A stretch of 64,000 nucleotides of DNA. Source: Cloacibacterium normanense. GTDB lineage: Bacteria; Bacteroidota; Bacteroidia; Flavobacteriales; Weeksellaceae. The notes under the pieces are model-generated. The model saw only the letters and a program-made list of their open reading frames with translations. It ran no database searches and was not told where the DNA came from. The position numbers and the translations under genes are program-made. Below are positions 28,495-30,185 of this stretch, one piece after another (within the stretch, counting starts at the first letter, position 1; each line of letters opens with the position of its first letter). The stretch is from assembly GCF_002943105.1 (NCBI RefSeq), contig NZ_PTPZ01000004.1:62001-126000 (forward strand), read 5' to 3'.

Positions 28495-29109
28495 TTAACT
28501 TAAATCTAATCTCATCAATTCATCTAAATCTTTTAAAACGGGATTAATTTCTACAAATTTTTGGAAAATATCTCTTTTCGTTTCTTGTTTTTTGATGAGT
28601 TTTTTGTCTTCTCGGTAAGAAACTTCTATTTTGTAGTTGTTGACTTTTCTCTTGAAATGATTAAAAAATTGCGCTTGAATTTTCTCAAACTCAGTTTTTA
28701 CCAAATCTGAAGGATATAAAATCTCCACTACATTTTCTTCCTTTTTATGAAGTTTTGCTGTATTTACGGCAAAATAAGTGACTTGGTCTTTTATAAATAA
28801 ATCATTTAGAAAAATTTGCCATTCTGTTTGTAAATCTTTCTCGGTGAAATGATGATCTGGTAAATCTTCTTCTTTTTTCTGAAGAGTGACAACTACTTCT
28901 TCTTCCTCTTTTTTATTGAGCGTAGCAAGAATACTAAATTCTGAAACAATGGTTTTCTTAACAATTGGTTCAGTAATTTTTTGAACAGTTTTTGGAACAG
29001 ATTCTTCTGTTTTTTTAGTTGACGGTAAAGTTTCTTGTGGTTTTTCTGGAACTACTTTTTGCTTTTCGCTTTCCTTTTTACGAAATAGTGGCGCTAGAAT
29101 TAAGAACTT
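28495..29109 (-). CDS. dnaX: dnaX tau-specific C-terminal tail, read only by frameshift
   Basis: This frame is open for 204 codons in the -1 frame relative to the gamma reading frame. It begins at the A-run (29108-29117) and ends at 28495. It has no ATG, GTG or TTG in its first ~125 codons, so it cannot be an independent gene over most of its length. It encodes a Lys/Glu/Pro-rich linker and then a compact C-terminal region (DLQTEWQIFLNDLFIKDQVTYF, then EILYPSDLVKTEFEKIQ) like the tau tails of Bacteroidota DnaX. Read through by a -1 shift, DnaX becomes about 563 residues. Confidence 0.75.
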   Translation of the reverse strand, partial: KFLILAPLFRKKESEKQKVVPEKPQETLPSTKKTEESVPKTVQKITEPIVKKTIVSEFSILATLNKKEEEEVVVTLQKKEEDLPDHHFTEKDLQTEWQIFLNDLFIKDQVTYFAVNTAKLHKKEENVVEILYPSDLVKTEFEKIQAQFFNHFKRKVNNYKIEVSYREDKKLIKKQETKRDIFQKFVEINPVLKDLDELMRLDLS

Positions 29110-30185
29110 TTTTTTTTATCATCACTTTTTGCAGCAGTAAGACTGGCCAACTGCATCAAAGCGATTTCTACCGTTAATCTTGGATTTTTAGAATTTTTGT
29201 AATTAATGTCTGCATGATTACAGATTTCTATAGCATCTATGAGTTGCTGTGCACTCCAATTTTTGCTCTGTTCAGAAAACTTCTGTTTCGTGTTCTCACC
29301 TACTTCTATTAAAGCAAGTGTAGAAGCATTCTGTGCCATCATTAAATCACGGAAATGACTTCCCAATCCACCAATAAATAAATGTGGGTCAAAACCTTTT
29401 TTAACAATATCATTGAAAGCGGTAAGAATTCCCGGAATGTTATTTTCTTTTGCTAAATCTACAATTTTCAAATATTGATCGTAATCTAGAATATTGAGAA
29501 CTTCTGCAGCTTTAGCAAGTGTAATATTTTTTTGAGTAAAAGTGGTAAGTCTATCAAAGATAGAAAGTGCATCTCTCAGTGCTCCATCAGCTTTTTGAGC
29601 AATTAAAAACAATGCATCATCTTCATAATTTACGCCTTCTTTTTCTGCAATTTTTCTAAGATGTTCCTGTATATCTTCGATGGTGATTCTTTTGAAATCA
29701 TAAATCTGACATCTTGACAAAATGGTAGGAATAATCTTATGTTTTTCGGTAGTTGCTAAAATAAAAATAGCGTGAGCTGGAGGTTCTTCTAATGTTTTAA
29801 GAAAAGCATTAAATGCCGCTGTAGACAGCATATGAACCTCGTCTATAATGTAAATTTTATATTTCCCAACTTGTGGAGCAAAACGAACTTGGTCTGTTAA
29901 ATCTCTAATATCATCAACTGAGTTATTAGAAGCAGCATCTAATTCAAAGATATTATACGCAAATCCGTCTTCTGAGGTAGAACCATCTTTTTCGTTGATT
30001 TTTCTAGCCAAAATTCTAGCACAAGTAGTCTTTCCTACACCTCTCGGTCCGCAGAAAAGCAACGCTTGAGCCAACTGACTATTTTCTATGGCGTGTTCTA
30101 AGGTATCTGTAACGTGAGATTGTCCTACAACAGTATCAAACTCTTGCGGACGATATTTTCTTGCGGATACGATAAAATTTTCCAT
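29100..30185 (-). CDS. dnaX: DNA polymerase III subunit gamma (short DnaX product)
   Basis: AAA+ ATPase of the clamp loader. The 361-residue zero-frame product holds domains I-III: SARKYRPQEFDTVVGQSHV, Walker A GPRGVGKTT (about 45-53), Walker B IIDEVHML, the SRC sensor ILSRCQIYDF and sensor 2 GALRDALSIFD. The usual four-Cys zinc module between Walker A and B is replaced by a short Cys-free loop (RKINEKDGSTSEDGFAYNIFELDAAS). The frame stops eight bases after a run of ten A residues. A -1 shift there continues into the tau tail (28495-29109). One gene therefore probably makes two products. Confidence 0.92.
   Translation of the reverse strand: MENFIVSARKYRPQEFDTVVGQSHVTDTLEHAIENSQLAQALLFCGPRGVGKTTCARILARKINEKDGSTSEDGFAYNIFELDAASNNSVDDIRDLTDQVRFAPQVGKYKIYIIDEVHMLSTAAFNAFLKTLEEPPAHAIFILATTEKHKIIPTILSRCQIYDFKRITIEDIQEHLRKIAEKEGVNYEDDALFLIAQKADGALRDALSIFDRLTTFTQKNITLAKAAEVLNILDYDQYLKIVDLAKENNIPGILTAFNDIVKKGFDPHLFIGGLGSHFRDLMMAQNASTLALIEVGENTKQKFSEQSKNWSAQQLIDAIEICNHADINYKNSKNPRLTVEIALMQLASLTAAKSDDKKKSS
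29108..29117 (-). promoter_or_regulatory. ten-A slippery run in dnaX
   Basis: On the coding strand GATGAT is followed by ten A and then GTTCTTAA. Zero frame gives Lys-Lys-Lys-Ser-Ser-stop. One extra A, or a -1 ribosomal shift, gives AAG TTC TTA and the tau tail. Thermus dnaX uses a comparable A-run for transcriptional slippage. Confidence 0.7.

Follow-up and report, generated by a model that had tools for sequence, protein, structure and literature searches.

How can the long, tau form of DnaX be made from a gene whose reading frame stops just behind a run of ten adenines? We evaluated this for the dnaX locus of a 64,000-nt window (the whole stretch of DNA analyzed) from Cloacibacterium normanense, combining the anatomy of the locus with profile and structure searches and with a comparison of dnaX loci across relatives. 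The best explanation appears to be a programmed transcriptional slippage at the run, through which a single dnaX would yield both gamma (361 aa) and tau (about 563 aa), and we assign this reading a probability of roughly 0.83. A preliminary description of the same DNA had already proposed a programmed production of both forms, which the relatives sharing the ten-A run and the selection acting on the tail now support. It had left the choice between slippage and a ribosomal shift open; on this point, the comparative sequence data favour slippage.

Anatomy and identity of a divided dnaX

The zero frame opens with an ATG and encodes 361 aa, reading GAT AAA AAA AAA AGT TCT TAA across the junction (Table 1). 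The -1 frame is open for 206 codons from stop to stop, and the earliest codon in it that could serve as a start, a GTG at 28728, lies 129 codons in. Since the first start codon lies this far into the tail, tau requires a frame shift, and since the third frame closes at its own TAA, only one frame leads to tau. Hence the main anatomical statements of the preliminary description, i.e., a zero frame of 361 aa ending eight bases after ten A, a long -1 tail without an early start, and a tau reachable by a shift alone, were borne out. With one A added, the junction reads GAT AAA AAA AAA AAG TTC TTA ATT CTA GCG CCA and stays open to 28495. The predicted C-terminal end of gamma is KKKSS, and the predicted junction-spanning peptide of tau is KKKKFLILAPLF.

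Table 1 Features of the dnaX locus, in window coordinates.
Feature	Position	Strand	Basis or remark
dnaX zero frame (ATG to TAA), gamma-like protein	29100..30185	(-)	AAA+ domains, lid, domain III; Pfam and NCBI family profiles
A10, candidate slip site	29108..29117	(-)	ten A by direct reading; at least nine A here in 231/239 Bacteroidia loci
Zero-frame stop TAA, terminates gamma	29100..29102	(-)	last base eight bases after A10
Third-frame stop TAA (two extra A or one fewer), gamma-like product too	29078..29080	(-)	sequence reading
Tau tail in the -1 frame, with codons after the run starting at 29106	28495..29115	(-)	open frame, profile matches, dN/dS
Tau-tail folded part, tail residues 82-173, small alpha/beta domain	28588..28863	(-)	predicted structure

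An Rfam search of window positions 20-40 kb at E up to 1 returned no element at the A10 site. Elsewhere in the same genome (2.84 Mb, both strands), the A10 pattern matched 29 times, and these matches merged to 24 distinct runs. Other homopolymers within open reading frames of this genome include a sense-strand T10 in two related ORFs (L271, G000:C15:14481, and L272, G000:C16:21371; 885 and 891 codons within the stretch), where it lies inside a TraG-type conjugation ATPase with an additional DnaJ domain, as well as an A10 in an Abi_C-domain ORF (L267) and a T10 in an RteC ORF (L254).

Profile searches indicate that the gene is DnaX, with the clamp-loader AAA+ domains I-II, domain III and a tau tail homologous to that of the full-length DnaX of the phylum. 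The gamma piece matched PF13177, PF22608 and PF12169 above the Pfam cut-offs, and TIGR02397 with 395.5 bits (cut-off 250, E 2.3e-118). Against the phylum-level gamma/tau model NF011531 (614 positions), it covered positions 1-372, and the tail covered positions 425-613 (E 1.5e-10). Since the two pieces scored 581.8 and 40.5, respectively, and neither reached the whole-protein cut-off of 685 bits, tau is easily overlooked in species with a split gene. The tail matched a profile HMM of continuous tails at E 2.2e-26; overall, 133/133 split tails matched this HMM, built from 98 continuous tails, at E < 1e-5, and no match was obtained with the same tails in a wrong frame (0/133) or shuffled (0/133).

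Fold comparisons said less about the tail. No Pfam family matched the tail of the window, the DnaX_C family PF20964 matched weakly in 3/42 tails (best E 0.0058), and a PDB sequence search gave two weak matches, the best (E 0.023) to an unrelated protein. The structure predicted for the tail had a mean pLDDT of 75.1. Foldseek returned no match for it at E ≤ 0.001, and its best Z scores, 7.8 to DnaA domain I and 7.7 to DciA, are within the tool's level for chance arrangements. Chain E of the E. coli Pol III complex 5fku, which we take to be tau, was matched at a Foldseek E of 0.39 only. At most, the predicted fold is suggestive of a resemblance to tau domain V.

A split at a homopolymer may raise the suspicion of a sequencing or assembly error, or of a decayed gene, given that long homopolymers are error-prone and that this assembly is a draft of 19 contigs. 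We nevertheless regard such an origin as ruled out, its probability being close to nil, by the A10 splits in the genus and the selection on the tail. The dnaX gene was split in 6/6 other same-genus genomes searched, with the same A10 at the same codon in five (L002, L004, L005, L006, L007), four of which are single-contig genomes (G002, G003, G004, G006); the sixth (L008) has an A11, one base longer upstream, with the frame relation unchanged. An open frame of 361-411 aa was present in 48/49 genomes of family f1, and the split -1 state recurs in 126 distinct loci. Among named relatives, Halpernia and Chryseobacterium are the closest. Among 13 chosen pairs, dN/dS of the tail read in the -1 frame was 0.07-0.29 (9 of 11 split pairs where computable; no tail value for L003-L008, L003-L010 and L184-L191, where dS was saturated), and gamma was lower still. 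Read in the other two frames, the same DNA gave 11 values between 0.35 and 3.66, taken from those split pairs that were equal in length. These ratios point to a tau tail under purifying selection.

The selection on the tail also bears on whether the gamma-like form is the sole product, or the tail is translated separately through internal initiation. Gamma alone can exist, as indicated by a 300 kb genome of the same order (L051, G050) with a DnaX of about 345 aa and no tail found. For the window, however, either variant of this reading is very improbable: the tail offers no start codon for 129 codons, and the whole of it is under selection and matches continuous tails. L051 itself has no A-run of seven or more by its stop (a T11 is found there) and no open tail, and seems to be a reduced genome with a gamma-like form only.

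The A-run and the reading frame across Bacteroidia and the phylum

To place the window among its relatives, we fetched 251 loci (L001-L251), of which 249 were classified (L051 and L224 were not located) and 239 retained as distinct, two cut, four short and four identical ones being dropped. This is a non-random sample, with 43 split and 36 continuous loci picked from the best-scoring matches listed, and its ratio of split to continuous genes is not a prevalence. The end of the domain was set by a simple motif, or by a fixed position where the motif failed, and the run was counted within the following 150 nt. At least nine A were found at the site in 241/249 classified loci. For background, the first 990 nt of these genes (246,510 nt in all) contained three runs of this kind, and the remainder of 243 tails (133,484 nt) contained six. 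Among the 239 distinct loci, A10 was by far the commonest length (197), followed by A11 (25), A9 (8) and A13 (1), with fewer than nine A in eight loci. Phase variation by replication slippage was considered and rejected, since 197/239 loci have exactly ten A.

All three frame relations between gamma and tau occur at this site. Tau lies in the -1 frame of a split gene in 126 of the 239 loci, in the same frame of a continuous gene in 105, and in the +1 frame of a split gene in eight, and a run of at least nine A was present in 125/126, 98/105 and 8/8 of these, respectively. The tau frame is open in every state, while both other frames close in fewer than ten codons in 96-100% of loci; at other tail positions, such early closing was found in 51-62%. 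In continuous genes, one extra A leads to a stop within one codon in 71/98 cases. The preliminary description had named relatives with a continuous dnaX and a broken-up run as a pattern that would speak against it; this pattern is absent, with the run kept in 98 of the 105 continuous loci. Seven continuous Bacteroidia genes (L130, L186, L190, L192, L196, L202, L205) lack an A9+ at the site, and these may make one form, or gamma by another route.

In principle, a requirement for a lysine-rich linker behind domain III could be the sole reason for keeping the run, as the run encodes lysines in any frame. AAG would serve equally well, yet an unbroken run was found in 33/35 loci at GC ≥ 0.45, where 9.9 are expected from each gene's own use of AAA and AAG. 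Conservation of the run despite synonymous options was a check that the preliminary description had suggested. The corresponding values were 158/162 against 92.7 at GC 0.35-0.45 and 40/42 against 29.9 below 0.35, and only 8/239 loci have no run. The run furthermore occupies all three codon phases within Bacteroidia, so that the flanking residues differ. A need for lysines is, on these counts, scarcely credible as the only cause; the homopolymer of at least nine A is retained at the DNA level against synonymous change.

A similar run extends beyond the class. In other classes of the phylum, 30/39 fetched loci had A9 or A10 (13 split -1, 17 continuous), up to a GC of 0.65 (A10 in L344), and the nine run-less loci were all continuous. 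For eight loci outside the tree (L319, L320, L321-L326), A9-A10 was present at the site in seven, the exception being L323, with A7 at the site and an A12 further on. Short inverted repeats, read by eye, flank the A9 of L332, L337 and L362 from other classes (e.g., CTGAA...TTCAG), and the A9 there could occupy a hairpin loop.

On a gamma tree built with FastTree only, with splits untested, the frame state changed at least 36 times, compared to a mean of 84 for shuffled labels, and 24 times for the 197 A10 loci alone. Presence of the run changed six times, compared to 7.9 for shuffled labels, with losses scattered; since merely eight loci are without a run, 36 against six is not a fair comparison of rates. 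Changes of state also separate close relatives: L211 (+1) and L246 (in frame) belong to one genus, share 98% identity over the first 60 residues and both have A10, and a further locus of that genus (L347, G235) is split +1 with A10 as L211 is. Among the eight split +1 loci, A10 is found in four (L037, L126, L144, L211), as it is in L347; the other four could be run-length errors, since they have A9 or A11.

From these patterns, we lean slightly towards a broader reading, in which an old slip site across the Bacteroidota (in the GTDB sense, including a high-GC Chlorobium-like family) would be so strong that RNA polymerase nearly randomizes the frame. The frame encoded in the downstream DNA would then be near neutral: although the replication gene is essential, its frame would have drifted dozens of times among the in-frame, -1 and +1 states, with A9-A11 kept under tight selection. 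In a split gene that lost its run (L047), a cassette for ribosomal frameshifting would have come instead.

Probable transcriptional slippage, with ribosomal frameshifting as a rival

In the proposed mechanism, RNA polymerase would gain or drop A's on the A10. Gamma would come from transcripts left unchanged or carrying three extra A, for which the stop is the one at 29102-29100; transcripts with one extra A (or four extra, or two fewer) would read on into the tau tail, and the remaining class would end at 29080-29078 as a further gamma-like product. We infer both the identity of the slipping enzyme, RNA polymerase, and the ratio of the products. Slippage would distribute the transcripts among the three frames, so that little would depend on which frame the DNA itself encodes, and relatives could toggle and yet keep the run. 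A toy model, with k extra A per transcript drawn from a geometric distribution and p = 0.618 set by the 50% tau of Thermus, gave frame classes of 0.50, 0.31 and 0.19, which became nearly equal at p = 0.95. In this model one extra A is the commonest slip, and it is the +1 class that the tau of the window would need. Its output fits the -1 bias of the split genes, the early stop after one extra A in continuous genes, and the tolerance to frame changes.

The main competing explanation is that tau arises through -1 ribosomal frameshifting on A AAA AAA or A AAA AAG inside the run, either by itself or in combination with slippage. An in-frame A AAA AA[A/G] heptamer is found in 231/231 run-bearing loci, so that the ribosome could contribute, although such a heptamer is implied by any run of nine or more A. 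Split genes lie mostly toward -1 (126 vs 8), the direction expected of ribosomal frameshifting, and this counts against slippage alone. The only lysine tRNA found was tRNA-Lys(UUU) (39 tRNA places; three predicted genes, one long and low-scoring), and the accessible part of a 2016 review ties tRNA-Lys(UUU) alone to ribosomal shifting in E. coli and ascribes reversed dnaX cases to ribosomal frameshifting. Shine-Dalgarno-like tetramers are also enriched in the 16 nt upstream of the run (100/231 loci vs 9%), with a GGAG adjoining it in 67/231.

Against this stands above all the use of the run in every frame state. A -1 ribosomal shift could not produce tau in the split +1 genes with A10 (L037, L126, L144, L211, L347), and since one slip site serves every phase, slippage by RNA polymerase is favoured over ribosomal frameshifting alone. 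A heptamer needs six or seven A, but at least nine are present in 231/239 loci and exactly ten in 197. The usual stimulators are likewise missing at the window, where neither a downstream stem-loop (fold z +0.45) nor, ahead of the run, a Shine-Dalgarno-like tetramer was detected, and they are missing in most relatives: among the 79 of 231 loci folded (every third locus), the mean z was -0.33, with z < -2 in 9/79, and a Shine-Dalgarno-like tetramer 8-14 nt upstream of the run was present in 14/231 loci and in 6/37 in the family of the window. In the accessible text on F. johnsoniae, Shine-Dalgarno sequences are described as seldom used and frameshifting at prfB as poor (PMC12421855). On balance, a ribosomal origin of tau at the window is unlikely, even if it deserves more weight than any other alternative considered here.

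One relative suggests how ribosomal frameshifting would look in this gene. L047 (G054, same order) is the sole split -1 gene of 126 without a run of nine; its gamma ends at CCA AAA AAG TAG, and a 14-bp hairpin (-26.5 kcal/mol) starts six bases after the heptamer. This gene probably uses ribosomal frameshifting. Such a ribosomal cassette is plain in L047, where the long run is missing, and there is none at the window. Near the domain end of the seven continuous run-less genes, no such cassette was found either, L192 having an in-frame A-rich heptamer only at 1370.

Relation to known DnaX systems

Transcriptional slippage on dnaX was reportedly described for Thermus thermophilus by Larsen et al. 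2000. The Thermus gene resembles that of the window in having an A-run as slip site, stops in both non-tau frames, and gamma and tau from one gene, according to the accessible parts of two reports (PMC5009743, PMC1088944). The same sources give nine A for Thermus, with tau in frame in the DNA and slippage leading to gamma, whereas in the window the run counts ten A and the in-frame product is gamma. The parallel with Thermus drawn in the preliminary description is therefore sound for the mechanism and reversed for the DNA state. In E. coli, too, an A-rich site allows a single dnaX gene to yield two protein forms; as far as the accessible literature on it goes, A AAA AAG is accompanied there by an upstream Shine-Dalgarno sequence and a hairpin, and the window has neither of these stimulators. 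L047 resembles the E. coli type, without a Shine-Dalgarno sequence. Slippage that joins two ORFs into a long product, as proposed here, is also described in the accessible sources for Shigella mxiE and for IS-element transposases, which are unrelated genes.

No report of a class-wide run or of frame toggling was found in searches of the open-licence literature. The series of orthologues, with one slip site upstream of tau in all three frames, constitutes a natural test set: it lets one ask whether RNA polymerase, rather than the frame of the DNA, sets the gamma:tau ratio, and whether gamma is needed.

The closest precedent is the set of two-ORF dnaX genes of Antonov et al. 2013, which in the accessible part of that paper comprises 17 genes from 12 genera, all -1, nine of them with ten A (PMC3711429). 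The window shares every feature of that arrangement, i.e., a zero-frame gamma, a -1 tail and an A-run at the junction. Transcriptional realignment was proposed there for dnaX, argued from the ten A, and a conserved direction of shift was taken as the mark of ribosomal frameshifting and a mixed one as that of slippage (PMC3711429). Our loci are mixed in this sense, with orthologues that need opposite shifts (126 split -1, 8 split +1) alongside 105 in frame, and they differ from the -1-only set of that paper, as far as it is accessible, in that relatives with tau in the +1 frame or in frame carry this run as well. Genes arranged in this way have been published before, and the window adds a new member to their kind.
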